DNA of 57,070 nt from an uncultured Anaerolineaceae bacterium (GTDB lineage: Bacteria > Chloroflexota > Anaerolineae > Anaerolineales > Anaerolineaceae): assembly GCA_927443345.1 (NCBI GenBank), contig CAKMKJ010000022.1:1-57070 (forward strand), in the 5' to 3' direction. A program made the translations under genes and the position numbers. Below the pieces are notes generated by a model, which was not told where the DNA came from, did no database searches, and saw nothing but the letters and a program-made list of their open reading frames with translations. This document shows positions 15,397 through 37,877 of this stretch, piece after piece (positions within the stretch are counted from its first letter, which is position 1; each line of letters starts with the position of its first letter).

Positions 15397-16524
15397 TCAG
15401 CCCAAATGCATGGGCATGATGACATGGGTGAAATTCTCATCGCCAACCGGCCGAATAACACCGGGGGTGTTATTGGCATTGGTTTCGAGTGCCACACTGG
15501 GCGCCTTGATTACGTCCAGCACTTCGCGCAAGAAACGCACATTGAAGGCAATCAACAATGCGTTGCCTTCAATATTGGCTTCCATCTGGATATCGCTTTT
15601 GCCGGTTTCTTCTGTCAGGGCACTAATCTCAACTCTGCCTGTGCCGTTCTCTTCAGGGATCACATTCAATTTTATAACGTTATTGCCTTCACGCGCGATG
15701 ATCTCGGCTTGCTTGCATGCTTTCAGAAAAGCCGGGGTCGAGATGGTTGTGCGGGTTTTGTAGTTATGAGGGATGATGGCTCGGAAATCGGGGAAGTTAC
15801 CGTCAATTAATTGTGAAACCAACTCGGCATCATTGAGGTGGAAGATCACCTGTCCGCGGCCCTGGGGTACCACCATGGTGACGGTCTTGTCGCTGTCACC
15901 GGCAATACGCGCCAGTTCACTCATTGCACGCGCAGGGATGATGATCGAGAAATCTTGTTTGATCGGGTTGGCCAGAAGTTCTTTGCGCACTGAAATGCGG
16001 AAGCCGTCAGTCGCGGCCAAAGTGATTTGGCTTTCTTGAACTTCCATTTTGACACCCTGCAACACAGGTCGGGCTTCATCCGCAGAGGCGGCAAAAGCCA
16101 CTTGTTGAATCATTTCGCGGAAATCCACCAGGTTGAGGTCTACGCCTTCGGTCAGATCTGGCACCGGAATCGGCGGAAAATCCTGGGCGTCAATACCTTT
16201 GATGTCATGTACAGAACTATTACAAACCAGGTTGATGGTTTGTGTTCGAGTATCCAGAGCGAGCTGCACATTCTCATTAGGAAAGGTTCCCACCAGATCC
16301 ACCAGGGTTCGGGCAGGGACAGTAACGGACCCCTCTTCCTGGATTTGTGCAGGGATCCAGCAAGTGATGCCCATTTCAAGATTGGTGGCAGATAAACGCA
16401 GGCGACCTTCGTCCGTGGCCACCAGTACGTTTGCCAAAACTGGCAGTGTGCTTCGCGGTGAAACGGCGCGGCTAACCACGCTAAGTCCGTGAGCCAAATG
16501 TTGTTGGGTGACTGTGGCTTTCAT
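15397..16524 (-). CDS. dnaN: DNA polymerase III beta subunit (sliding clamp)
   Basis: A 375-residue protein of the normal clamp length with three repeated domains. MKATVTQQHLAHGLSVVSRA starts domain 1; the family stretches RPVLQGVKMEV and LAATDGFRISVRKE lie in domain 2, and the C-terminus HVIMPMHLG matches the clamp ending with the P-M-R/H-L motif. As a dimeric ring it tethers polymerase III to DNA. AGAGGA precedes the ATG at 16524. In many bacteria dnaN follows dnaA beside oriC; here dnaA is not adjacent (an acetyltransferase lies upstream, facing away), but the DnaA-box cluster is only about 7 kb away. The orientation is co-directional with a fork moving left from that cluster. Confidence 0.97.
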   Translation of the reverse strand: MKATVTQQHLAHGLSVVSRAVSPRSTLPVLANVLVATDEGRLRLSATNLEMGITCWIPAQIQEEGSVTVPARTLVDLVGTFPNENVQLALDTRTQTINLVCNSSVHDIKGIDAQDFPPIPVPDLTEGVDLNLVDFREMIQQVAFAASADEARPVLQGVKMEVQESQITLAATDGFRISVRKELLANPIKQDFSIIIPARAMSELARIAGDSDKTVTMVVPQGRGQVIFHLNDAELVSQLIDGNFPDFRAIIPHNYKTRTTISTPAFLKACKQAEIIAREGNNVIKLNVIPEENGTGRVEISALTEETGKSDIQMEANIEGNALLIAFNVRFLREVLDVIKAPSVALETNANNTPGVIRPVGDENFTHVIMPMHLG

Positions 16525-22301: not shown

Positions 22302-22958
22302 GTGAAAAAATTCATAGCGGTGGCTGGCAATATTGGGGTTGGTAAATCTACCCTGGTTGAGATGATCTGCGAAAGATTGGATAGTAAACCCTATTATGAA
22401 CCGGTCACCGAAAACCCCTATATCTCAGATTTTTATAAAGACATGGTTTCTTGGAGTTTTCATTCACAAATCTTCTTTTTAACCCACCGTTTGCGAATTC
22501 ATCAAGAATTGATTCGAAATTCTGGATCCGTTATTCAGGATCGCAGTATTTATGAAGACGCCGAAGTATTCGCTCAAAATTTGTTTGCTCAAGGCCGCAT
22601 GTGTGAACGCGATTACACCACCTATCGTTCTTTATACCGAACACTTGCAGAATATCTTCCTCCCCCTGATTTAATGATCTACTTACGCGCTTCTGTTCCA
22701 ACTTTATTAAATCGCATTGCGTTAAGAAACCGTGATTATGAACAACAAATTGCTCCTGAATATCTATCTCGATTAAACGAACTCTATGAAAATTGGATTA
22801 ACAATTTCACCTTATGTCCGGTGCTGACTGTTCCTTCCGACGATTTGGATTATGTGGCACATCCCCGTCATTTAGAGTTAATAATCAACAAAATAAAAGA
22901 AAAATTAACCGGAAAAGATGAGGTCGTTTTTACTCCTGAAGAAACACAAAAAGCCTGA
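22302..22958 (+). CDS. Deoxynucleoside kinase 1 (dGK/dAK type)
   Basis: A 218-residue P-loop kinase with a GTG start at 22302, preceded by GAGG. Walker A is GNIGVGKST (residues 9-17), followed by EPVTENPYISDFY (substrate base contact), FHSQIFFLTHRL, IQDRSIYEDAEVF with the DRS catalytic/base-selecting motif, and the LID region RIALRNRDYEQ. It salvages deoxynucleosides to dNMPs in the cytosol. A paralogue with a divergent DRS position is at 24792, and the pair flanks the probable replication origin, echoing the Bacillus dgk-dck pair. Its last codons form part of a terminator used by SpoVS on the other strand. Confidence 0.92.
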   Translation: MKKFIAVAGNIGVGKSTLVEMICERLDSKPYYEPVTENPYISDFYKDMVSWSFHSQIFFLTHRLRIHQELIRNSGSVIQDRSIYEDAEVFAQNLFAQGRMCERDYTTYRSLYRTLAEYLPPPDLMIYLRASVPTLLNRIALRNRDYEQQIAPEYLSRLNELYENWINNFTLCPVLTVPSDDLDYVAHPRHLELIINKIKEKLTGKDEVVFTPEETQKA

Positions 22959-23007: not shown

Positions 23008-23268
23008 TTAGACTGGATCTACCACTAATTTAATTGCTGTGCGAACTTTTCCTTCAATGTCCACATCAACGAATTCAGGATAACAGACAATTTTTATTCC
23101 ATCTTCTTCTAAATAACCTTTTGCCAAGACGAGTGCTTTGACGGCCTGATTTACTGCACCTGCACCAATTGCCTGTATATCTGCGTGCTTATGTTCACGC
23201 ATGACACCCGCAATGGCCCCCGCGACAGCCGCTGTGCGAGAATTGGCTTTGACCTTAATTACATCCAT
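23008..23268 (-). CDS. spoVS: SpoVS-family nucleic-acid-binding-like protein
   Basis: An 86-residue protein, the same length as Bacillus SpoVS, opening at the ATG at 23268 after a GGGAGTGG ribosome-binding site. The sequence MDVIKVKANSRTAAVAGAIA, then RTAIKLVVDPV at the end, is strongly conserved across the SpoVS family (Alba-like fold). In Bacillus it affects sporulation, but homologues are common in non-sporulating Chloroflexota and Deinococcota, where the role is unknown. The gene reads away from the DnaA-box region immediately upstream of it, and ends in its own terminator. Confidence 0.93.
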   Translation of the reverse strand: MDVIKVKANSRTAAVAGAIAGVMREHKHADIQAIGAGAVNQAVKALVLAKGYLEEDGIKIVCYPEFVDVDIEGKVRTAIKLVVDPV

Positions 23269-23339
23269 TTTTTCCACTCCCTTCTGGATCAACGATGGTC
23301 TTTCTTAAAAAGCCAAGGGGGCAAAACGCCTACTTGTTA

Positions 23340-23790
23340 AAGATTGTACAAGAAATTATGCACAGTTTCAATACTTTATATTTGATATAAAAAGCAGTTT
23401 ATTTATGAACATGTGGATAAGTGTGGTGATGAATTAGTTATTCTTTATAAGGATAGTGTTAAATAGTTGTAATAGTAGTGGCTGTGGATATGTGGATAAA
23501 AAAAGATAAAGCGTTTTCTTGGCAATATTTGGGCACATAGTAAAAATAATCGCCATATATGGGGTAATTCGTTATTATCTATTCACAGCAGACTGTTGAT
23601 GAAATAGTGTTTATTAGTAGAAAAATATTAAACTGAAGAGAATCGTTTTTATTGTTGCTTTTGGCTGGTTTTTGTCCACCGCATAAGGGGACTATTAGGA
23701 TGAATTTATCCACAAGAAGTCAATGTTTATCCACAGCTTTTCAGATGGTTATCCACACTTAAAGATTTTTTTGTTGAGAGAAGCAGATTA
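23340..23790. other. oriC: Probable chromosomal replication origin (oriC) with DnaA boxes
   Basis: About 520 bases between SpoVS and the nucleotidyltransferase gene hold no gene but six matches to the DnaA box TTATNCACA. Three on the right read forward and are evenly spaced: 23706-23714, 23727-23735 and 23749-23757. On the left, reverse-oriented TGTGGATAA sits at 23412-23420 and 23491-23499, and forward TTATGCACA at 23356-23364. Weaker boxes are at 23483-23491 and 23579-23587. Between the two groups (about 23500-23660) the sequence is AT-rich, a candidate unwinding element. Two parS sites 12 kb away and dnaN 7 kb away support the call. dnaA itself is not visible. Confidence 0.88.
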
Positions 23791-24777
23791 TTATAAGGTT
23801 TCTACGACTTCTTCAACTTTATCCAGCGCGGCATCTAAAGCGTCCAACCGGGTTGGTAGTGTTTTTGAATCCAGTTTGAGTTGATGGCTAAAAGCCTGCC
23901 ATTCTTTGTAACAGGCTTCGGTTTTTGGAAGCAAAGTCGCGGCCAGCGTCCAAACATCCAACAAAACCCAAACAGCAGCGGCAGGGCGCTCTTCTGACAG
24001 CGCGAGGATGGCTTTTTCGTAATAATTTCGCCGATTAGGATTGATACTTGGCGGAATCGTTTTGATAGAAGAAAGCGCCTCAAAAGTATTATTTAATCCC
24101 GCCAGCCAGGGTTGCCAACTTTCATCAGTCACTTCTATGCTTGTAAACAAGTGAACCAGGTCGCCAGTGAGGTCGGGTATGCCGGCTTTTTCTGCGCGGT
24201 CAGGCAGATCAACGAACAACCTGCGGACGGTGAGGGGCATGCCTGAAAGGCAGGCTGCAGCATTAGCTGTTTTGCGGACGGCGTTGACAAAAACTTGAAT
24301 GCGTTTAATCCCCTGTGGCACGCTGCCATCTTCCAGTGCTTGCCAATCTTGGCGTGCAGAATCCAGAAATAGTCGGCTTCGTGCTGCCACATTAGCGGGC
24401 TGCCAAAATTGTGATATGGCGGTTGAGCGGGTGAGATCAAACCAGTGGGTGGAATCTTGCAGGCTGATGGCGCCGAGATCCAGCGCGCCGCCAATCCATG
24501 GGTCAAGACGCAGTTTGCGGGCTGGCGAAAAAGTCTCTTGTGGGTAGTGAGCAATATCCAGGTGTACATCAGCATTGATACGCACGATCTCACGGCAGGT
24601 AGCAACCGGCCGGTCGTGTACACAGATCAGGTCAATATCCGTGACGCCGCCGATGAAGGGGTCTTGGTGGAGCAGCGATCCTGTCAGGTATACGCACACC
24701 AATCCGCGGTCTTTTGCGGTCAGTTTGGCGGCATTTTCTTTTGCGAGGTTGAGCAGGATATCGCGCGTGACACGCAT
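23791..24777 (-). CDS. Nucleotidyltransferase-fold protein of unknown target
   Basis: A 328-residue protein. The N-terminal 100 residues hold the polymerase-beta-type nucleotidyltransferase signature: VYLTGSLL (Gly-Ser), then GVTDIDLICV (Asp-x-Asp) 14 residues on, and a third acidic position in DVHLDIAHY. This is the same minimal core as aminoglycoside and DNA-pol-beta-like transferases. The remaining 200 residues are helical and match no family that I recognise; a conserved-looking R-R-N-Y-Y-E-K stretch lies near 255. The substrate could be a small molecule or RNA. It lies 14 bases downstream of deoxynucleoside kinase 2 on the same strand and is probably cotranscribed with it. It ends against oriC. 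Confidence 0.7.
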   Translation of the reverse strand: MRVTRDILLNLAKENAAKLTAKDRGLVCVYLTGSLLHQDPFIGGVTDIDLICVHDRPVATCREIVRINADVHLDIAHYPQETFSPARKLRLDPWIGGALDLGAISLQDSTHWFDLTRSTAISQFWQPANVAARSRLFLDSARQDWQALEDGSVPQGIKRIQVFVNAVRKTANAAACLSGMPLTVRRLFVDLPDRAEKAGIPDLTGDLVHLFTSIEVTDESWQPWLAGLNNTFEALSSIKTIPPSINPNRRNYYEKAILALSEERPAAAVWVLLDVWTLAATLLPKTEACYKEWQAFSHQLKLDSKTLPTRLDALDAALDKVEEVVETL

Positions 24778-24791
24778 GGCTGGCTCCGTGG

Positions 24792-25427
24792 TCAGGAAAT
24801 AGGTAATTGCGGTTGAAACGGTGCTTCTTCAAGTGCGGTGGCGATGCGTGCAGTGATGATATCCAAATCCATGTTGCGGCTGACGAAATCTAGCTCGTCG
24901 GTCTGGATGACCAGTATTTCCGAAGAGTGGGTGGACCCCAAATAGAAATCATCGTAAGAGCGGTTCAACAATTCAATATAGTCGCGTTCCATGGTGCGTT
25001 CGTAAGGGCGGTCACGCTGCGCGATGCGCCGCATCAGGGTTTCAGTGGTGGCGCGCAAATAAACCACCAGGTTGGGAGGGGTGATCTTTTCAGCCAGCGC
25101 CTCCTGCACGTTGTAATACATATCCAGCTCGTCTCCCTTGAGGTTGATGCGTGCAAAAAGCGCATCCTTTTCGAAGGTGTAATCGCTGATTACGGCCTTG
25201 GCAGATTCGAGGCGTTCGTTTATGTTGCGGCGCTGTTGATGATAGCGGCTGAGTAAAAAAAAGATCTGGGTTTGAAAGGCATAGCGCGCACGGTCTGAAT
25301 AAAAGTTGCTTAAAAAGGGATTCTCTTCAAAGACTTCGAGCACAAGCTCCGCCTCGAAATGAGGCTGCAGCATTCTGGCGAGGGTGGTTTTGCCCACCCC
25401 AATGACACCTTCAACGGCAAAATACAT
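24792..25427 (-). CDS. Deoxynucleoside kinase 2 (dCK/dAK type)
   Basis: A 211-residue paralogue of the kinase at 22302. Walker A is GVIGVGKTT (residues 7-15), then EVFEENPFLSNFYSDR, YAFQTQIFFLLSRY and the LID RRIAQRDRPYER. The DRS motif of kinase 1 is replaced by VISDYTFEKDALFA, the SDY form seen in the second member of paired kinases in Firmicutes. That suggests a different base preference. It is transcribed toward oriC with the nucleotidyltransferase gene 14 bases downstream. The function is dNMP salvage. Confidence 0.92.
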   Translation of the reverse strand: MYFAVEGVIGVGKTTLARMLQPHFEAELVLEVFEENPFLSNFYSDRARYAFQTQIFFLLSRYHQQRRNINERLESAKAVISDYTFEKDALFARINLKGDELDMYYNVQEALAEKITPPNLVVYLRATTETLMRRIAQRDRPYERTMERDYIELLNRSYDDFYLGSTHSSEILVIQTDELDFVSRNMDLDIITARIATALEEAPFQPQLPIS

Positions 25428-25515
25428 AAATTGACGTCTCCAACCGGGTTTCCGGCTTTCGTATGGGGATTTTCAATACAGAAAATATACCATAAATTTA
25501 TAGCCACGGTGATTT

Positions 25516-25543
25516 GTAAGGGCAATTCATGAATTGCCCTTAC
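25516..25543. repeat. 28-bp perfect palindrome (family A, copy 2)
   Basis: A perfect 28-bp palindrome starting GTAAGGGCAATTC and ending GAATTGCCCTTAC. An identical copy is at 44047-44074. It lies between kinase 2 and the DinB gene. As RNA it would fold on either strand, but there is no T run. Confidence 0.9.
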
Positions 25544-25556
25544 CCGGAAGAGGTTA

Positions 25557-26075
25557 TCACCACGGCCATGTTTGTCCGCTTTCATGGATGAACGCAATGA
25601 TTGCATCCAGCGTCGGCAGGGGATGACCCAGCCCGGTCATGACGATGGAGAGTTCGCCGCGGTGGTGGGCAGAGTGAAGCAGCGACTGGGTCAGAAGCTG
25701 CCAGCGCGCCAGCTTGAACGGCTGCCCACCGATGGGGATGTCAACGATTTCAAGCAGTTTTTCATCCGTTACCCAGTTGAGGTATTTAAAACGCTCCTCC
25801 GCGATCTGGCTGAAGGCCACTGTGATCTCTTGCAGGCTGAGGGTCTTGTCGGGTGCACCTTTGGGGTTCACCGGCTTGCCCTCGCTGCGGGCCAGAAAAA
25901 AGAACTCGGTCGTCAGCATGTGAGTCAGAAGCGCCTGCACCGATCCGTGGCTGGGGCTGGATTGGGCGGTAAAGGAGGCTTCGTCCATTGCGGCGGCGGT
26001 TTGCAGCACGAGCTGGTTGGCATGATTGTTGGTGTTGTGAAGCACAAGTAAGGCTGATTTATTTAAGTTATCCAT
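25557..26075 (-). CDS. DinB-family putative metal-dependent protein
   Basis: A 172-residue four-helix DinB/YfiT-type protein, started at the ATG at 26075 because GGAG lies just upstream. Histidines expected to bind metal are visible in NNHANQL near the N-terminus, in LLTHML near residue 48 and in SLLHSAHHRGEL near the C-terminus. These proteins are often thiol transferases or hydrolases with unknown substrates; no specific activity can be given. It follows the ArsR/DUF2087 regulator gene with a 12-base gap in one operon, so its expression probably follows that regulator. Confidence 0.85.
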   Translation of the reverse strand: MDNLNKSALLVLHNTNNHANQLVLQTAAAMDEASFTAQSSPSHGSVQALLTHMLTTEFFFLARSEGKPVNPKGAPDKTLSLQEITVAFSQIAEERFKYLNWVTDEKLLEIVDIPIGGQPFKLARWQLLTQSLLHSAHHRGELSIVMTGLGHPLPTLDAIIAFIHESGQTWPW

Positions 26076-26087
26076 TTTGGTCTCCAA

Positions 26088-26657
26088 TTAATTCACCCAA
26101 TAATCCCCGCCGCCGCCCTCGCGGTTCATCAGTTTGTATTCAATCATCCCGCGGCGGAGTGAGGCTGTGTCTTCATTGAACCTCTTGAATATCTCGTTAA
26201 CTTCTTTTTCGCTGTAGCGCTTGCCCTTCACAAAAGCTTTTAAAACGTGCCGGAGCAGAACGATGAATTTCTTGTCCTGAACCGGAAAGGCCTTGATCTG
26301 ACCTTCAGCATTAAGAAAATTGGAGAGTACCTTGCGCTCAAAGGCGTCTTCACCCAGGCCCTCTGAGAGCCTGGGTAGATTCTCGTCTTGCAGCAGATGG
26401 CGCGACATGGATTTAAGTGTCTCGGTTTGAAGAGAATAAATGTAATAGTGTCCTTCGGTACGTGCGCTGACCAGCCCGGCTTTTGACAGGTTTGCCAGAT
26501 GGTGAGAAGTGGTCGAGACGCTCAACCCGAGCAGCTCAGCCAACTTTTCCACGGAAGTGGGCTGTTGGGCCAGCAAGCCGATGATCTTGAGGCGGTTTTC
26601 ATCCGCCAATGATTTAAAGAAGGCCAGCAGTTCGGCCAGTTGTTCCTGTTCAGTCAT
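26088..26657 (-). CDS. ArsR-type HTH regulator with DUF2087 domain
   Basis: A 189-residue two-domain regulator. Residues 1-80 hold an ArsR-like winged helix: LADENRLKIIGLLAQQPTSV, LAELLGLSVSTTSHHLANLS, KAGLVSARTEGHYYIYSL. Residues about 105-185 (ILNFLNAEGQIKAFPVQDKK-like stretch, VLLRHVLKAF, RYSEKEVNEIFKRFNEDTAS, LRRGMIEYKLMNREGGGGDY) form a DUF2087 domain, frequently fused to such helices. No cysteine metal site is evident, so it is not a classical metal sensor. It heads an operon with the DinB gene and probably controls it. Confidence 0.88.
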   Translation of the reverse strand: MTEQEQLAELLAFFKSLADENRLKIIGLLAQQPTSVEKLAELLGLSVSTTSHHLANLSKAGLVSARTEGHYYIYSLQTETLKSMSRHLLQDENLPRLSEGLGEDAFERKVLSNFLNAEGQIKAFPVQDKKFIVLLRHVLKAFVKGKRYSEKEVNEIFKRFNEDTASLRRGMIEYKLMNREGGGGDYWVN

Positions 26658-26869
26658 GCAAAACTCCTTGATAATGTTTCGATACCAATAGAAATGATTT
26701 TATCAGAGTTGTGAGGTGTGTCAAGGGAGAAGGCAATCTCTCGCAACACATAGCGCGTGAAGCGCGCTAGTGCGCAGAGCGAGAGCGCAAAGTCGCAAAT
26801 TAAACCAAGGGTATATGAAAAACCATGTTTCTCCAAAGAAACCCGGTTTCTAGGGGTAGAACTTATAGA

Positions 26870-26902
26870 AGTCCCCTGCAGATTCAAAATCTGCGGGGGA
26901 CT
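26870..26902 (-). terminator. 15-bp stem hairpin downstream of pepF
   Basis: AGTCCCCTGCAGATT and AATCTGCGGGGGACT pair over CAA with one T-G wobble. It lies 26 bases past the pepF stop. There is no T run after it on the minus strand, so intrinsic termination is uncertain. The rest of 26658-26927 shows no gene. Confidence 0.5.
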
Positions 26903-26927
26903 AAGTAAGGTAGGGCTCTGAACTTAA

Positions 26928-28700
26928 CTACTTCGTAATCTTCTCCAACTGATCCACAAGCGCATCGAGCACATCGAAGCCGCCCTGCCAGAACGAAGCC
27001 TTGGTCACGTCCACACCGGCCTCGGCCATTACCTGCATCGGCGCCTCGGACCCTCCCGCGGAGAGCATCTTGATGTATTTCGGCTTGAAGGATTCTCCCT
27101 CGGCCTTGAACTGCTTGTAAAGTGAAAGCACCAGCAATTGCCCGAAGGCGTAGGCATACACATAGAAGGGCACCTGGTAGATGTGCGGAATGGAGACCCA
27201 CTCCCACTTGAATTCTTCAGAGACTTCCACTGCGCTGCCGAACTGCTTCTTGAGGTTTTCCATGTAGGCTGCAGAAAGCTCATCCACGGAAGCGCCTTCG
27301 GCGATCATCTGGTGCGCCTGTTTCTCGAACATGGCGAAGAACGACTGTCTTTGAATGGTGGCATAGGCGTCATCCATCTGTTTGAAGAGCAGGTCGCGCT
27401 TGACGGCATCGTCAGATTCTTCAGCTAACAGGCGGTCCACCAGCATCATCTCGCCAAAAGTGGAGGCGGTTTCAGCCAGCGGCAGACAGGCATGCTGGGT
27501 GAAGAGGCTGTGCTTGTCGGCCAACATTGAGTGGATGGCGTGACCCAGTTCGTGAGCCATGGTGGCGACGTCATCCGTCTTGCCCTGGTAATTGAGCAGC
27601 ACCCAGGGGGTCAGGTCGGGGGTGACGGTGGCGCAGAAAGCACCGTCGCGCTTGCCCTTGCGCACTTCGGCATCAAGGTGGTCTTCCTTAAACACACGTT
27701 CGGCCATTTCAGCGAACAGCGGATCAAAATCGGTGAAAGATTCCAAAACTTTGGCAGCGGCTTTGTCATAGGCGTAGGCTTTATCTGCCATGGCAACCGG
27801 GGCATAAATATCGTAACGGCGCAGCTTGTTCACACCCAGCAGTTTGGCTTTCAATTTAAAAAAGCGTTGGAAGATGCCGGTGTTCTTTTCGGCCACTTTC
27901 AGCAAAAGATCAATTACTTCATCCGGCAGGTCGTTGGCCAGGTTGCGCGCGGAGATCGGACTCTTGTGATGGCGCAGGGTGACTTCTTCATTCTTCCAGT
28001 CGCGCACTATGATCTGATACATCTGCCCGAGGATGTCGCCATCCGCGCCGTAAACACGGTAAAGCGACTGATAGGCTTTGGCGCGCAGGTCGGGGTTGTC
28101 GCTGCGGACGTAGCTCATCAGTTCGCCGCGTGTCATTTCTTTGACCTCGCCATCCACTTCAAATGTGAAGACATAGCGATTGGTTATGGAATCGTAAAGG
28201 GTGGTGAGTGCATTGACACCGGTGACGTTCTTGGTGTTGATGATCTTCTCTTCAGGTTCGGTCAGGGTGTGCGGTTTGAAGTGGCGCATTTCTTCAAGCC
28301 AGTAGCGGTAATCGCCCGATTCTTTCATCAGGCGTTCTGCGGCGGCATCTGAAAGCTCCTTCCACCACAGGCTGAAAAAGAGGGTGCGGTTACCGATCTC
28401 GGATTGCTGCTGTTCAGTTTTGGCGATCAACCCCAGCGCGGCTTGATTTTGAGTATCTTCGGCGAACCACAAACCGGCATAGCTACCCATGAGATGTGCC
28501 ATGCGCGAAATACCTTCCATCGCCTTGATCACCGACAGGAAGTCCGTGCTGCTGATGTCATCTTTTAACATCGGGCGCAGTTTTTCAAAGTCCGCGGTCA
28601 GTTTATCGATGGCCTTAAAATCTTTGTTGAAGTCCTTTTCAGAAGTGTATATATCTGAAAGGCTCCAGCGTTTTTGAGTGTAGGTAACAGGTTTGGTCAT
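26928..28700 (-). CDS. pepF: Oligoendopeptidase F (M3 family)
   Basis: A 590-residue cytosolic metallopeptidase with the zinc motif HELGHAIH (His383, Glu384, His387) and the downstream third-ligand region LPLAETASTFGEMML. The N-terminal domain (RWSLSDIYTSEKDFNKDFKA) and the segment ARNLANDLPDEVIDLLLKVAEK are typical of PepF. It cleaves oligopeptides of about 7-17 residues. The length is normal for the family and no signal peptide is present. It stands alone on the minus strand between the ArsR regulator and the inositol phosphatase gene, with a 109-base featureless gap upstream. Confidence 0.96.
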   Translation of the reverse strand: MTKPVTYTQKRWSLSDIYTSEKDFNKDFKAIDKLTADFEKLRPMLKDDISSTDFLSVIKAMEGISRMAHLMGSYAGLWFAEDTQNQAALGLIAKTEQQQSEIGNRTLFFSLWWKELSDAAAERLMKESGDYRYWLEEMRHFKPHTLTEPEEKIINTKNVTGVNALTTLYDSITNRYVFTFEVDGEVKEMTRGELMSYVRSDNPDLRAKAYQSLYRVYGADGDILGQMYQIIVRDWKNEEVTLRHHKSPISARNLANDLPDEVIDLLLKVAEKNTGIFQRFFKLKAKLLGVNKLRRYDIYAPVAMADKAYAYDKAAAKVLESFTDFDPLFAEMAERVFKEDHLDAEVRKGKRDGAFCATVTPDLTPWVLLNYQGKTDDVATMAHELGHAIHSMLADKHSLFTQHACLPLAETASTFGEMMLVDRLLAEESDDAVKRDLLFKQMDDAYATIQRQSFFAMFEKQAHQMIAEGASVDELSAAYMENLKKQFGSAVEVSEEFKWEWVSIPHIYQVPFYVYAYAFGQLLVLSLYKQFKAEGESFKPKYIKMLSAGGSEAPMQVMAEAGVDVTKASFWQGGFDVLDALVDQLEKITK

Positions 28701-28809
28701 AAGAGTCCTTTTTAGATTAGAATTTTCCTTAAAAACTACAAAAAAAGTAACTTAATATTTCTATTCTTTGGTGATTATACAGTTAGATGTATTAGAATTT
28801 CAAATTATT

Positions 28810-29586
28810 CTACTGAAGGATTTTTAACAATTCCTTATGTATCCCTGGCGCGGAAGATACCAGCCCGTAAGGCGGCTTGAAGAAATCAGGGTCGCCGTGC
28901 AGATCGGTCACGGTTGCGCCAGCCTCCTGGCTGATTAGCGACCCGGCGGCGATATCCCAAGCGTTAATTTTTTCTTCCCAATAGCCATCCAGCCGACCGC
29001 AGGCCACGTAACAAATATCAATCGCCGCGGACCCCAGCCGCCGCACACCCTGGGTGATATTGGTCATGCGCCCGAAGATTTCCATACGTCGGGCAACGAG
29101 GGTTTGATCGGGTTCGTTGTGCGGCAGACCGGTCACCAATAAGCTGTGCTGCAGGTTGGCGCAATCTGACACGCGGATGGGTTCGCCGTTCAACCAGGCG
29201 CCCTTGCCGCGTTCTGCGCTGAAGCATTCGTCGTGTGAGGGGTCGTAGACTACCCCCAACTGTAATTTACCTTGATATTGATAGGCCACCGAGATGGCAA
29301 AGAACGGCACCTTGTGGCTGTAGTTGATCGTGCCATCCAGCGGATCAATATGCCAGCAGTGATCTGCATACCCGTTGACTTTTCCGGTTTCTTCCGCGAT
29401 GATCGAGTGCTCCGGGAAGCTGCCCAAAATGGCGTCAAGCAGCAGTTTTTCGCAGGCAAGATCTACTTCGGTTACAAAATCTGTTTCGCTCTTGTAGCCG
29501 ATGGTATGTTTTGTGTGAAGGCTATCCAGGGCGATTTGGCCTGCGGCTTTACTCCAGGCGATTACCTGGTTGAGTGTGGGTTCCAT
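28810..29586 (-). CDS. Inositol-monophosphatase family phosphatase
   Basis: A 258-residue enzyme with the metal-binding motifs of the IMPase family: IIAEET (Glu65-Glu66), IDPLDGT (Asp81, Asp84) and INAWDIAAG near residue 210. It removes phosphate from myo-inositol 1-phosphate or related sugar and nucleotide phosphates (SuhB, CysQ and histidinol phosphatases share the fold), with Mg2+. The substrate is not decided by the sequence. The start lies three bases after the stop of the HD-domain gene, so the two are cotranscribed and translationally coupled. Confidence 0.93.
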   Translation of the reverse strand: MEPTLNQVIAWSKAAGQIALDSLHTKHTIGYKSETDFVTEVDLACEKLLLDAILGSFPEHSIIAEETGKVNGYADHCWHIDPLDGTINYSHKVPFFAISVAYQYQGKLQLGVVYDPSHDECFSAERGKGAWLNGEPIRVSDCANLQHSLLVTGLPHNEPDQTLVARRMEIFGRMTNITQGVRRLGSAAIDICYVACGRLDGYWEEKINAWDIAAGSLISQEAGATVTDLHGDPDFFKPPYGLVSSAPGIHKELLKILQ

Positions 29587-29588
29587 AT

Positions 29589-30224
29589 TTATCTTTCTCC
29601 GTTGATTTCTGCGATGAGTTGCTCAAAAAAACCGTCAAGGTATTGGCTGCGTTTGTGCGCAATTGCTCTGGCGGTTTGGGTAAACAGTTTCTTCTCTATT
29701 TTCTGCAATTTATACAGGTGTTCATGATAAGCGCTGTGCAGTTCGCCCTCTATTTCTTTGCCGGTTTCGATGAACTGCTGCGAGGGGGGTGCATAAAACG
29801 GCGTGCCTGCCAGTGCGGCATAAACAGATACCCTGATGGCGCCGATGGCACCCAACACATCCAGCTTATCCGCGTCAAAAATACACCAGGCTTCAATCGT
29901 CTCAGGCGGTTCCTGATCGCCTCTGAAGCGGTGTGCGCGCACACAATGCTGAACGGCTTTAATGCGTTCTTCAGGCCAGCCTTCTTCACGCAGAATCTTG
30001 CCGGCAAATTCTGCTGAGCGCAGGTGGTGTTCTTTGCGCGTGTCACTGCCTGGGGTTGTACCGTCTGCGTCGTGCAGCAGGGCGGCGGCATGCACGATTT
30101 CGAGATCCGCGCCTTCGGCCAGCGCGAGGCGCTCAGACATTTTATAAACTCTTTCAATGTGAGAGAAATCATGCACGGCATCCACATGTTCATACCATGC
30201 ACGTGCTTTTTCTAATGTTAACAT
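29589..30224 (-). CDS. HD-domain phosphohydrolase
   Basis: A 211-residue HD-superfamily protein: HDFSHIERVYKM (His18, His22), AAALLHDADG (His51-Asp52) and CIFDADKLDVLGAIG (Asp near 122) supply the metal ligands. It is of the YedJ/YpgQ type, cytosolic, and dephosphorylates nucleotides or related compounds, exact substrate unknown. The gene lies between hutI and the IMPase gene; the IMPase follows three bases after its stop. Upstream is an AT-rich CTAG palindrome at 30237-30256. Confidence 0.9.
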   Translation of the reverse strand: MLTLEKARAWYEHVDAVHDFSHIERVYKMSERLALAEGADLEIVHAAALLHDADGTTPGSDTRKEHHLRSAEFAGKILREEGWPEERIKAVQHCVRAHRFRGDQEPPETIEAWCIFDADKLDVLGAIGAIRVSVYAALAGTPFYAPPSQQFIETGKEIEGELHSAYHEHLYKLQKIEKKLFTQTARAIAHKRSQYLDGFFEQLIAEINGER

Positions 30225-30236
30225 TCCGCTCCTGAT

Positions 30237-30256
30237 AATTATTTCTAGAAATAAAT
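30237..30256. repeat. CTAG-centred AT-rich palindrome (family B, copy 4)
   Basis: Matches the 15312 copy over AATTATTTCTAGAAATAA. It lies in the 33-base gap between the hutI stop (30258) and the HD gene start (30224). Confidence 0.75.
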
Positions 30257-30257
30257 C

Positions 30258-31508
30258 CTATTGAGGATAAACAATCCCTTTTTTGATCACAGTACGCACA
30301 AGGTTGCCGCCAAAGCGGTATGCCAGGTGGCGATAATCTTCCACAGACAAGATCAACAGATCCGCCTGCTTGCCTGCTTCAAGTGAACCTATGGTGGCGC
30401 TGCGGCCGGTGGCGTAGGCGGCGTTTATGGTTGCGGCTGCCAGCGCCTGGGCGGGGGTGAGTTTCAATGTTCTGCAGGCTAACGCGATGACGAACTGCAT
30501 GCTTTCACACCAGGCCGTACCGGGGTTGAGGTCCGTGGCCAATGCGAGGATGGCATCCGCGGCGAGCAGGTCTTTTGCTGGTGTGTAATGCGCATCAGCC
30601 AGCCCAAAGGGGGTGCAGGGCAGCGAGACCACCGCCGTTTTGGATCTGCCCAAGAGTTGTATTTCTGCTGCCGATGTTTTTACCACATGATCCACGGAGG
30701 TTGCGCCTAATTCACTGGCCAGGGCGGCGCCGCCCAAATTTTCAAATTCATCCACATGTGCCTTAAGCGGAAAGCCTAACGATCTCGCCGCAGTAAATAT
30801 CTGCAAAGTTTGGTCTAGGTTAAACGCCCCTTTTTCGCAAAAGACATCCACAAAGGGCAGAGGTTTATTGGCAGCTTTGTGGTGCCACCAATCTTTCAGA
30901 GCAGGCAGCATTTCGGCACAAATTAACTGTGTATAGGCATCTTCCCGGCCTGCATATTCAGTTGGGATGGCGTGGGCTGCCAAAAAGGTGGGCACAATTT
31001 CAAGCGGACCCTCATGGTCAAGCTGCAGCAAAACCGCCATTTGGGCTAGTTCGGTTTTCAGTGCCAGTCCGTAGCCGGTTTTGGTTTCTGCTGTGGTGGT
31101 GCCATAACTAAACATTGCGTTGGCCCTTGCTCTTGATTCATGCAGCAGCGTCTCGTGATCTGCGGCACGCGTGGCTTTTACTGTAGAAGCGATGCCGCCG
31201 CCAGCCGTCATAATTTCCATATAACTCTTGCCTTGCAGACGCATTTCAAATTCTACAGCGCGATCGCCCGCCCACACCAGGTGGGTATGCGCGTCCACGA
31301 ATCCGGGCAGCATGGCCTTGCCGTCTGCATCCAGGCGTTCTTCGTCTGGATACTTATTCAGTAAATCAAGCGTAGTGCCAGTCTCAATGATTACCCCATC
31401 ACGGATTAATACAGCACCATTGGGAATGATCCCCAGACGGCCGAGGTCGCGTCCGCGCTGCGGAGAGCCGGCCAGTGTTATCAATTGTGATGCAGAATGA
31501 ATGAGCAT
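30258..31508 (-). CDS. hutI: Imidazolonepropionase
   Basis: A 416-residue amidohydrolase with VDAHTHLVWAGDRAVEFEMR (zinc ligands His-x-His), EIMTAGGGIASTVKATR, the FSYGTTTAETKTGYGL stretch, KAHVDEF, and DLNPGTAW near the end, all diagnostic of HutI. It converts 4-imidazolone-5-propionate to N-formimino-L-glutamate, the third step of histidine degradation. hutH, hutU and hutG are not in the window, so the pathway is split or incomplete locally. Downstream are the HD and IMPase genes on the same strand, 33 bases away. Confidence 0.95.
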   Translation of the reverse strand: MLIHSASQLITLAGSPQRGRDLGRLGIIPNGAVLIRDGVIIETGTTLDLLNKYPDEERLDADGKAMLPGFVDAHTHLVWAGDRAVEFEMRLQGKSYMEIMTAGGGIASTVKATRAADHETLLHESRARANAMFSYGTTTAETKTGYGLALKTELAQMAVLLQLDHEGPLEIVPTFLAAHAIPTEYAGREDAYTQLICAEMLPALKDWWHHKAANKPLPFVDVFCEKGAFNLDQTLQIFTAARSLGFPLKAHVDEFENLGGAALASELGATSVDHVVKTSAAEIQLLGRSKTAVVSLPCTPFGLADAHYTPAKDLLAADAILALATDLNPGTAWCESMQFVIALACRTLKLTPAQALAAATINAAYATGRSATIGSLEAGKQADLLILSVEDYRHLAYRFGGNLVRTVIKKGIVYPQ

Positions 31509-31577
31509 GGGTCCTCTTCAGAGTGTTCTACTTCATAGTATACCTGAAGGGGCAAAGCAGGGTAAGCTGGATTGAAT

Positions 31578-32744
31578 TCAATCGGCCTTTTTTAAGTGAG
31601 GAATCTTGATGCGGGTCAAGATAAATAGCGCTATCAGGTTGAAGACCAGGCTTCCCGCAGCATTAAACAAGATGCCTCCCTTGTATAATTGCGGACCAAT
31701 CACATCTCCGAGCGCGCGGCCTATCGAAAGTGCAGCGATGAACAGGGCCATCGTGGTGGCGCGAGCTGTTGGCGTGATCTCAGACATCAAAGGCAGTGCG
31801 CTGATCACCACTATCTCGAAAGATAAGAAGAACATGAACAACCAGATGAAAGCTCCCACTATGGAGCTTCCCACAAGGGGCAGGGTGATCACGGTCAAAC
31901 TGCTGAGAATGATGCCCGCAGCGATGGATTTTTCTTTACCGATGCGGTCTGCCAAAAAAGCAGCGATGCCATTGCCGCCAAGTTCAGAGAATCCGATCAC
32001 AGCGGAGGCAGCGCCAAGCGCTGCGATCTGTAGGCCGTAAGCGTCTTGCATCCACACCCCGAAGATCACATTGATCAGTTCGTTGCCCAGAATGAACGAC
32101 AGCCCCATCAACATACCCATCACAGCAGGCATATACCCCAGCACTTTGCGGATATCCGCAAACACAGCAACGGGCTCCCCTTGAACGGGAAGGTCATTTG
32201 GTACCAGCCACCAGATCAACAGGGTGGCAATAGCACCGGCAACAGATAACGCAATGAAAGGGCCGTTCCATAATCCGTTCTCGAGGATTAATCCCGCCAG
32301 GGGCACCATGATGATGAAAGACAGCGCCCACGAAAGCTCGATCACCGCCATGTAAAAACCGCGTCTCGCGTAGGGGGTATGATCACCAAGATAAGCTTGT
32401 ATGGGCGGCAGCAGCACATTGTTACCCAGCGACCCCAACAGAATGGCGATGAAAAAAGTCACAATCGAAGGGAACAAACTGGCTGACAACATGCCGGTTA
32501 AAAAGAATCCCATGCCAATCAGCATGCCGGTTTTTCGTCCACGGCGGTCAGCAATCGGCGCTAAAAACGGACCCAATGCACTGGTGGCCATTGAAACCGC
32601 CATGGCCAAAGAGATGATGCCAATATCTACACGTAAACCGCTGGCAAACACCGCCAGAAATGGATAGATCATTCGTGTGGCGGTGTTGACCACCAATCTC
32701 GAAAGGGTAAAGACCCCCAGTTTCACATTCAAAGAAGTTATCAT
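31578..32744 (-). CDS. MFS transporter (DHA1-like)
   Basis: A 388-residue transporter with about 12 hydrophobic helices. The loop 2-3 motif reads GPFLAPIADRRGRKTGMLIG (residues about 58-77), a good match to the G-x3-D-R-x-G-R-R signature, and the central cytoplasmic loop is around residues 185-205. A second, weaker loop motif is FLADRIGKEKS in the C-terminal half. The substrate is unknown; export of small organic molecules is the common role. It is upstream of hutI on the same strand with a 69-base gap, and a link to histidine breakdown is possible but not shown. Confidence 0.9.
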   Translation of the reverse strand: MITSLNVKLGVFTLSRLVVNTATRMIYPFLAVFASGLRVDIGIISLAMAVSMATSALGPFLAPIADRRGRKTGMLIGMGFFLTGMLSASLFPSIVTFFIAILLGSLGNNVLLPPIQAYLGDHTPYARRGFYMAVIELSWALSFIIMVPLAGLILENGLWNGPFIALSVAGAIATLLIWWLVPNDLPVQGEPVAVFADIRKVLGYMPAVMGMLMGLSFILGNELINVIFGVWMQDAYGLQIAALGAASAVIGFSELGGNGIAAFLADRIGKEKSIAAGIILSSLTVITLPLVGSSIVGAFIWLFMFFLSFEIVVISALPLMSEITPTARATTMALFIAALSIGRALGDVIGPQLYKGGILFNAAGSLVFNLIALFILTRIKIPHLKKAD

Positions 32745-32764
32745 AATTGGCAGCCCTGGCTTAT

Positions 32765-32792
32765 AAAAGAGCCCTCCCGCTGACGGGAGGGC
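32765..32792 (-). terminator. Rho-independent terminator of Rrf2 gene
   Basis: On the minus strand GCCCTCCCG and CGGGAGGGC pair over TCAG, followed by TCTTTTAT. It separates the Rrf2 gene from the MFS gene. Confidence 0.9.
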
Positions 32793-32869
32793 AAAATTGG
32801 AATTGCCCTGGTGATCAAAATAGAGGTATTTCGCAGATCTAAAGAGGTTTTTTGATTTACAACTAAAAA

Positions 32870-33268
32870 TTAAGCAGCTAATTGACCAAAGGTGGTTTGA
32901 CGAAGTTTCTTGACCATCTCATCTTGAGTTTCGCACCAAATTTTGTGCATGGGGCAGTCGTTAGAGAACTCGCAGATATCTGGTGTCAGGGTGCATTCAT
33001 TTAGTGAGATAGGACCGTCAATAGCTTCAACCACTTCAAGCAATGAAATGTTGGCGGCTGGTCTTGAAAGCAGCACACCGCCGCGAGCTCCGCGTGATGT
33101 GTGAATCAGCCCTGCTATTGAAAGTTGCGAAATGATCTTAGCCAGAAACGAAGGGGGAATCTTCTGGACTTCAGCGATTTGACTTGTCGCTGCTCGTTGG
33201 GTGGGATCAAGCTTTGCTAAATATAGCATTGCCCGAACCGCATAATCAGCTTGTCTGGTGATCTGCAT
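32870..33268 (-). CDS. Rrf2-family regulator with three-cysteine Fe-S site
   Basis: A 132-residue winged-helix regulator: MQITRQADYAVRAMLYLAKL, IAEVQKIPPSFLAKIISQLS and GLIHTSRGARGGVLLSRPA define Rrf2. The C-terminal part has Cys92, Cys99 and Cys105 with C-x6-C-x5-C spacing, close to the cluster ligands in IscR (92/98/104) and NsrR (93/99/105). That makes Fe-S-based sensing of iron-sulfur status, NO or redox likely. An extra Cys112 follows. A TACC-N6-GGTA palindrome at 33278-33291, just upstream of its start, could be an autoregulatory operator. It is divergent from the thioesterase gene. Confidence 0.92.
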   Translation of the reverse strand: MQITRQADYAVRAMLYLAKLDPTQRAATSQIAEVQKIPPSFLAKIISQLSIAGLIHTSRGARGGVLLSRPAANISLLEVVEAIDGPISLNECTLTPDICEFSNDCPMHKIWCETQDEMVKKLRQTTFGQLAA

Positions 33269-37699: not shown

Positions 37700-37716
37700 T
37701 CGGTTAATTAAATATG

Positions 37717-37842
37717 TTCTTCGGGGCAGGGTGAGAGGCTAATCGTCTCAATTCCCGATCGGTGGTGACAACCCACGAGCGCGAAACGCGCATGAGCAGG
37801 TGAAATCCCTGAGTCGACGGTAAAGTCCGGATAAAAGAAGAA
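37717..37842 (+). ncRNA. FMN riboswitch (RFN element) aptamer
   Basis: The conserved RFN blocks occur in order: TTCTTCGGGGCAGGGTGA at the 5' side, AATTCCCGATCGGTGGT, ACCCACGAGCG, GAGCAGGTGAAATCCCT, then GTCGACGGTAAAGTCCGGAT and the closing GAAGAA. The P1 stem pairs TTCTTC (37717-37722) with GAAGAA (37837-37842). It binds FMN and shuts down riboflavin synthesis or uptake genes when FMN is plentiful. It controls the ABC transporter genes starting at 37912. Confidence 0.96.
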
Positions 37843-37877
37843 TTTTTCCATTCAAGCGCCACAGCGTATTGAAACTC

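Follow-up and report, generated by a model that had tools for sequence, protein, structure and literature searches.

The window analysed in this work, a stretch of 57,070 b from the genome of an uncultured Anaerolineaceae bacterium (the window genome), carries a group of DnaA boxes in a gap between two genes, away from dnaA. This raises the question of whether replication of the chromosome starts at this place. The initial annotation had read the region as a probable oriC, and that reading is supported by the box cluster, by the match of a basal unwinding system (BUS) profile, by a kept gene context and by the GC skew of relatives. With high confidence, we regard the gap 23293-23790 as the chromosomal oriC of this bacterium. 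As an origin it is ordinary in kind, and it has a conserved address away from dnaA.

DnaA boxes in the intergenic gap

The gap is 498 b long. The region had been called gene-free, which holds for 23293-23790, between a SpoVS-family gene and a gene of 328 aa (here NT328), as no ORF of at least 80 aa, the threshold of our ORF listing, was found there. Six exact TTATNCACA boxes span 402 b of the gap, starting at 23356 (+ strand), 23412 (-), 23491 (-), 23706 (+), 23727 (+) and 23749 (+); all six previously annotated matches were thereby found again at their places. These are also the only TTATNCACA matches in the window, where 1.77 were expected, and 1 of 100 shuffles of the whole window reached six. 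Dinucleotide shuffles of the gap gave a mean of 0.045 boxes and a maximum of 2, none of the 20,000 reaching six. The gap therefore holds an intergenic cluster of DnaA boxes beyond chance, which is one criterion for an oriC. At the level of the whole assembly (3.67 Mb in 94 contigs), 70 exact copies of TTATCCACA were counted, five of them in the gap. No other TTATCCACA cluster was found in the assembly, the next closest pair on a single contig being 2.5 kb apart.

The boxes fall into two groups. On the right, three boxes on the + strand occupy 23706..23714, 23727..23735 and 23749..23757, with spacings of exactly 21 and 22 b, in agreement with the two helical turns annotated before. On the left, the box at 23491 belongs to the module described below. 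The box past the trio side (23412..23420, - strand) has no exact counterpart in the three closest relatives of our named-locus search (best 80 of 101), whose NT328 proteins are 87% identical to that of the window. The box TTATGCACA (23356..23364, + strand) is found in two of these three relatives and adjoins, on the spoVS side, the conserved sequence TTGTACAA; it may instead serve the control of spoVS.

Some palindromes were also seen in the gap. TTGTACAA itself is a palindrome (23344-23351) upstream of spoVS, and by eye either it or a TTGTACACAA-like sequence was detected in most same-genus loci and in loci L038 and L039; it probably serves spoVS control. Between the two box groups lies the palindrome CCATATATGG (23553..23562), whose class is present in 31 of 75 gaps, the window included, with 6.9 expected. 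At some loci, e.g. L160 and L173, at least two such palindromes occur per gap. CCATATATGG is possibly a candidate site for an origin-binding factor or a regulator. The sequence CCATATATGGGG occurs twice in the genome, the other copy (C11:12981) having one DnaA box about 50 b off. The surroundings of that copy lack a box cluster, and inspection by eye showed no trio module; it was treated as a chance occurrence.

The unwinding module

The published rule for a BUS asks for one DnaA box with at most two mismatches and an optional second box with at most four, a spacer of 0-16 bp (peaking at 10-13 bp) and at least three NAN trios (PMC8287927). In the case of the window, the exact box TTATCCACA (23491..23499, - strand) has no mismatch and is the first of a tandem pair. 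The second and weaker box, ATATCCACA (23483..23491, - strand), has one mismatch and overlaps the first by one base, and an equivalent weak box is present in relatives. A spacer of 12 b (23479..23490), which contains the larger part of the weak box as well as the G+C-rich bases TGGC, leads from the exact box to trio 1. Five DnaA-trios of the 3'-GAT-5' type follow on the + strand (23464..23478), running from 23478 down to 23464 between box 23491 and spoVS; read outward from the box they are TAG TAG TAA TTG TAG. The first three are A-centred and the fourth is T-centred, and the window has no C-centred trio. Across 55 origins, period-3 conservation ends after five trios. By its sequence, the conserved module is a BUS as in Bacillus subtilis, for which strand separation dependent on DnaA and the trios is predicted. 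By analogy with the B. subtilis BUS, the stretch past the trios (23421..23463) would be the place of duplex opening and helicase loading; 23430-23480 is 76% A+T.

The unwinding element had originally been placed in the AT-rich stretch 23500-23660, which adjoins box 23491 on the right. The richest 50 b of the gap (23604-23653, 80% A+T) do fall within it, between the box groups rather than at the trios, and another 80% stretch starts at 23353. Overall, A+T amounts to 71% in 23500-23660 and to 69% left of box 23412. As A+T content alone leaves the matter undecided, conservation on the trio side decides the location of the module: what relatives conserve are the trios 23464-23478, to the left of that box, and 23500-23660 was consequently overruled as the conserved unwinding module.

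A BUS profile was built from 41 relatives while holding out the window, its closest relatives L148-L150, and L168, L176 and L216 (test genomes or near kin, with P. submarina and the Leptolinea records L176/L216). Also outside the profile were L154, without a match to the BUS regular expression, and L184, L195, L202, L206, L208, L215 and L224, which match it and were not entered; a third Leptolinea record, L179, was part of the profile. This held-out profile matches the window at 23460-23500 with an E-value of 2.3e-10, the next match having 2.6. It was also applied to Pelolinea submarina MO-CFX1 (G108), Leptolinea sp. HRD-7 (G066) and a relative with a main contig of 2.7 Mb (G027). At the sites of G027, G108 and G066 the E-values were 4e-8, 3e-7 and 7e-6, and no other match in the 1.6 Mb sampled had a value below 4; the row of G027 itself may be among the 41 profile sequences.

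Named loci were taken as the best 80 of 101 in our search, including Pelolinea submarina, Leptolinea, Anaerolinea thermolimosa, Bellilinea and Longilinea. From these best 80 of 101, 74 have at least 450 b of downstream sequence, and 53 of the 74 contain a match to the BUS regular expression, compared with 2.8% of 3700 Markov controls and 3 of 74 reversed sequences. A pair of boxes 20-22 b apart, as formed by the right-hand boxes of the window, is present in 57 of the same 74 loci and in none of 3700 controls. The profile matches 57 of the 80 named loci (best 80 of 101), 41 of these being its own training rows. In the other 23 of these best 80 of 101, several of which are cut at contig ends, no match at E 0.01 or better was found. 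Eight of the 23 also lack an exact TTATCCACA (L170, L181, L186, L187, L199, L210, L222 and L223); some of these eight are cut by contig ends, and in others the origin may have moved or diverged. Three loci (L171, L174 and L185) have no boxes just downstream of NT328 and carry the module elsewhere in the locus, about 0.3 kb from spoVS in the case of L174 and L185.

The gene neighbourhood and its conservation

From left to right, the gap is set in the order dNK1 (+), spoVS (-), gap, NT328 (-), dNK2 (-). The outer genes are deoxynucleoside kinases, dNK1 at 22302..22958 (PF01712, 5.3e-53) and dNK2 at 24792..25427 (PF01712, 4.1e-38). The spoVS-family gene bordering the origin lies at 23008..23292 (PF04232, 2e-34). 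On the other border, the nucleotidyltransferase-like gene NT328 (23791..24777) has no Pfam match in the window, and 2 of 19 homologues match Polbeta weakly (best 0.035). Its residues GS and TDxD, typical of nucleotidyltransferases, are invariant in the 19 aligned homologues. Elsewhere in the window, an FMN riboswitch was identified at 37713-37846 (Rfam RF00050, 80.6 bits).

NT328 was found in 36 of 396 genomes of the class, own genome included, and all 36 belong to the taxonomic order of the window. It lies near the origin in most, not all, of the loci read. Within the genus, NT328 was found in 14 of 16 genomes, the window genome among them, and the two without it are 77% and 68% complete. All 14 same-genus loci, own included, keep the succession of dNK1, spoVS, gap, NT328 and dNK2, with spoVS present and the trio module visible by eye in each of them.

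Triplets of TTATCCACA with gaps of 9-16 b, the pattern of the right-hand group, were detected at 41 places in 38 of the 147 genomes of the family, own genome included; the reversed control pattern gave no match in the 147. Of 30 places read, 27 lie at the NT328 end, as in the window. The remaining three are L014, where the NT328-dNK2 pair is inverted, L035, beside spoVS where the contig ends, and L030, at a contig end with neither gene. In L014 the inversion leaves the triplet adjoining dNK2 rather than the NT328 end. The strict triplet pattern was absent from the other 15 genomes of the genus; 13 of them carry the homologous locus according to the NT328 search, and there the right-hand group has fewer exact boxes. 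The position is thus kept in related genomes, in 14 of 14 loci of the genus and in 27 of 30 places of the family plus the inverted one. The gene context had been described as atypical for an oriC; among the Anaerolineaceae loci read, the spoVS/NT328 setting is the usual one.

GC skew

A cumulative GC-skew minimum at the site was one of the checks proposed in the initial annotation. Since the window genome is divided into 94 contigs, its own skew was assessed within the window, and near-complete relatives were sampled with twenty 20-kb samples per chromosome and read contiguously around the site. The window has a local minimum at 23284 with a weak step, reached by 29 of 1000 permutations. In two near-complete relatives the local cumulative minimum lies within 0.9 kb of the site, namely 380 b away in G108 and 886 b away in G027. 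The minimum lies farther away in the same-genus G136, 10.6 kb off in a 400-kb stretch, and in the third near-complete relative, G066 (record L176; G066:C1:986009), where it is 50 kb off with near-zero skew between; a recent inversion or a transferred island is perhaps the reason for the G066 offset.

On the larger scale, the sampled sign change across the site is sharp in G027 and clear in G108, with one later sample of odd sign. In the case of G066, skew is positive in each of the ten samples between the site and the far maximum, and the six to the left are near zero and of mixed sign. For G108, G066 and G027, the sampled skew maxima are roughly half a chromosome away from the site, which for G027 means half of the 2.7-Mb main contig.

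Alternative explanations

Being next to dnaA or dnaN is a common, though not a defining, trait of an oriC, and this locus does not have it. The gene dnaN (15397-16524) ends 6.8 kb left of the gap, close to the 7 kb given before; instead of the seven genes then counted, eight protein ORFs (by our reading, spoVS included) and two tRNAs lie between. The gene dnaA, the sole PF08299 match in the assembly, is on contig C55, other than that of the window, where by our reading it adjoins an RNase J-like gene. One may suppose that the true origin adjoins dnaA and that the cluster described here is secondary, as oriC usually lies near dnaA (PMC10225481) and as the P. submarina record starts at dnaA, not at the origin-like site. 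We consider this very improbable, because the 20 kb surrounding dnaA in the window genome (about 9 kb on either side) contain neither a box nor a profile match, and the surroundings of dnaA in 12 relatives (~3.2 kb each) have 0 or 1 box. A second, denser cluster by dnaA, which would have spoken against the present site, was accordingly not seen in these stretches. Moreover, the skew switches at the site and not at dnaA in G108 and G027, and in the samples of G027 it has the same sign on both sides of dnaA.

The cluster could also be a datA-like site of DnaA titration or timing, or a DnaA-regulated promoter of spoVS, with replication starting elsewhere. DnaA acts as a regulator too in other bacteria, and box 23356, common to two of three close relatives, lies in the upstream region of spoVS. 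Such sites, however, do not require trios to be in register with a tandem box pair, the assembly has no second TTATCCACA cluster, and three of the four relatives read contiguously have their skew switch at the homologous site or close to it, so that we give this explanation a small chance. That the origin belongs to an integrated plasmid or another mobile element, as the iteron-like spacing of 21-22 b could suggest, is exceedingly improbable in our judgement: the neighbours look chromosomal, no replication initiator was found among the ten searched with Pfam, and different genera of the family share the locus.

The middle base of the trios and DnaA

In total, 55 origins were compared, consisting of 54 named loci (from the best 80 of 101) and the window. 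At the middle of trios 2-5, A occurs 137 times, C 57, T 16 and G 10 times in 220 positions. Changes between A and C account for 34 of the 54 changes inferred there by parsimony on the NT328 protein tree, trio 1 being left out of the count as its A is fixed by the search pattern. Outside the trios the corresponding value is 53 of 543, the sum of 22 of 325 for the 18 columns past the trios and of 31 of 218 for the 23 box-side columns, of which +24 and +25 alone have 19 of 48. Fisher's test of the trio middles versus the columns past the trios gives p 5e-20, a value to be read with the notice that these control columns are poor in C, that the parsimony is simple and its changes are not fully independent, and that the register of a few rows may be off. 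Only A is present at the middle of the first three trios in 23 of the 55 origins, and 50 of the 55 have either A or C at each of these middles, with trio 1 being A by pattern.

For B. subtilis, a study on this base states that DnaA reads the amino group at the trio middle. With C instead of A at the middle of trio 1, strand separation was about equal, and T at trio 1 lowered it; C at trios 1-3 was better than G or T for growth and initiation; the authors raise the possibility of a wider sequence range for other DnaA homologues (PMC10721633). Swapping of A and C at the trio middles, as seen in the aligned sequences, fits such amino-group reading by DnaA. An earlier report of natural C-centred trios may exist in the literature.

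The DnaA of the window genome has 450 aa and was aligned with B. subtilis DnaA (PDB 8btg) over residues 5-443. According to hand-counted positions, it shares Glu183, Asn187, Ile190, Ile193, Arg202 and Glu228 with the B. subtilis protein and has His in place of Asn196. These residues contact or flank the trios in B. subtilis, with Asn196 touching the third trio base, and none of the five essential ones is conserved universally (PMC10721633). All five trio-contacting residues essential for growth (Asn187, Ile190, Ile193, Arg202 and Glu228) are identical in the window genome.

Proposed mechanism

From the elements and their conservation, the kept gene context, the skew near homologous sites and the DnaA residues, we infer how this origin might work. 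DnaA would bind the tandem boxes 23491/23483 and the three phased boxes 23706-23757, and the two DnaA-bound groups may be brought together over the ~200 b between them, with DnaA at the right-hand boxes helping its loading at the tandem boxes. By analogy with B. subtilis, a DnaA oligomer would grow from the tandem pair over the spacer onto the + strand trios, from 23478 to 23464. Capture of bases could then open the duplex toward spoVS, where the helicase would be loaded. Forks would presumably leave in both directions; the genes at 23791-33268 point left, against the rightward fork.

Comparison with known origins

The closest likeness is to the incC/BUS of B. subtilis, which has tandem boxes beside the trios, a short spacer and repeated trios of the 3'-GAT-5' type (PMC6669920, PMC8287927, PMC10721633). 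Shared features are also a second box group at a distance and most of the DnaA residues in contact with trios. In contrast to B. subtilis, the origin is not beside dnaA, there are five trios instead of six, Asn196 is His, and Anaerolineaceae relatives use C besides A at the trio middle; furthermore, the box groups stand ~200 b apart in a single gap between spoVS and NT328.

Similarly, the oriC of Thermotoga maritima has TAG repeats in an unwinding element beside DnaA boxes whose phasing matters (PMC10316083). That is a minimal origin with five boxes, tested experimentally with its own DnaA, whereas here one group is displaced by ~200 b and the origin is predicted from sequence. There are also described origins not adjacent to dnaA (PMC10225481), which this one resembles in having dnaA on another contig and, in three relatives, 320-332 kb off (325 kb in G108, 332 kb in G066 and 320 kb in G027). 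It differs from the described dnaA-distant origins, judged from titles and abstract openings, in its neighbours spoVS, NT328 and two deoxynucleoside kinases. Titles and abstract openings of the literature on Chloroflexota or Anaerolineae origins and on spoVS-linked origins gave no description of this origin.

As a whole, these results place the origin of the mostly uncultured Anaerolineaceae (Chloroflexota) at the spoVS/NT328 landmark, which can serve to orient genomes and to estimate growth rates from coverage. The trio pattern is worth a dedicated study, and the set of 55 origins represents an evolutionary test of amino-group reading at the trio middle base.
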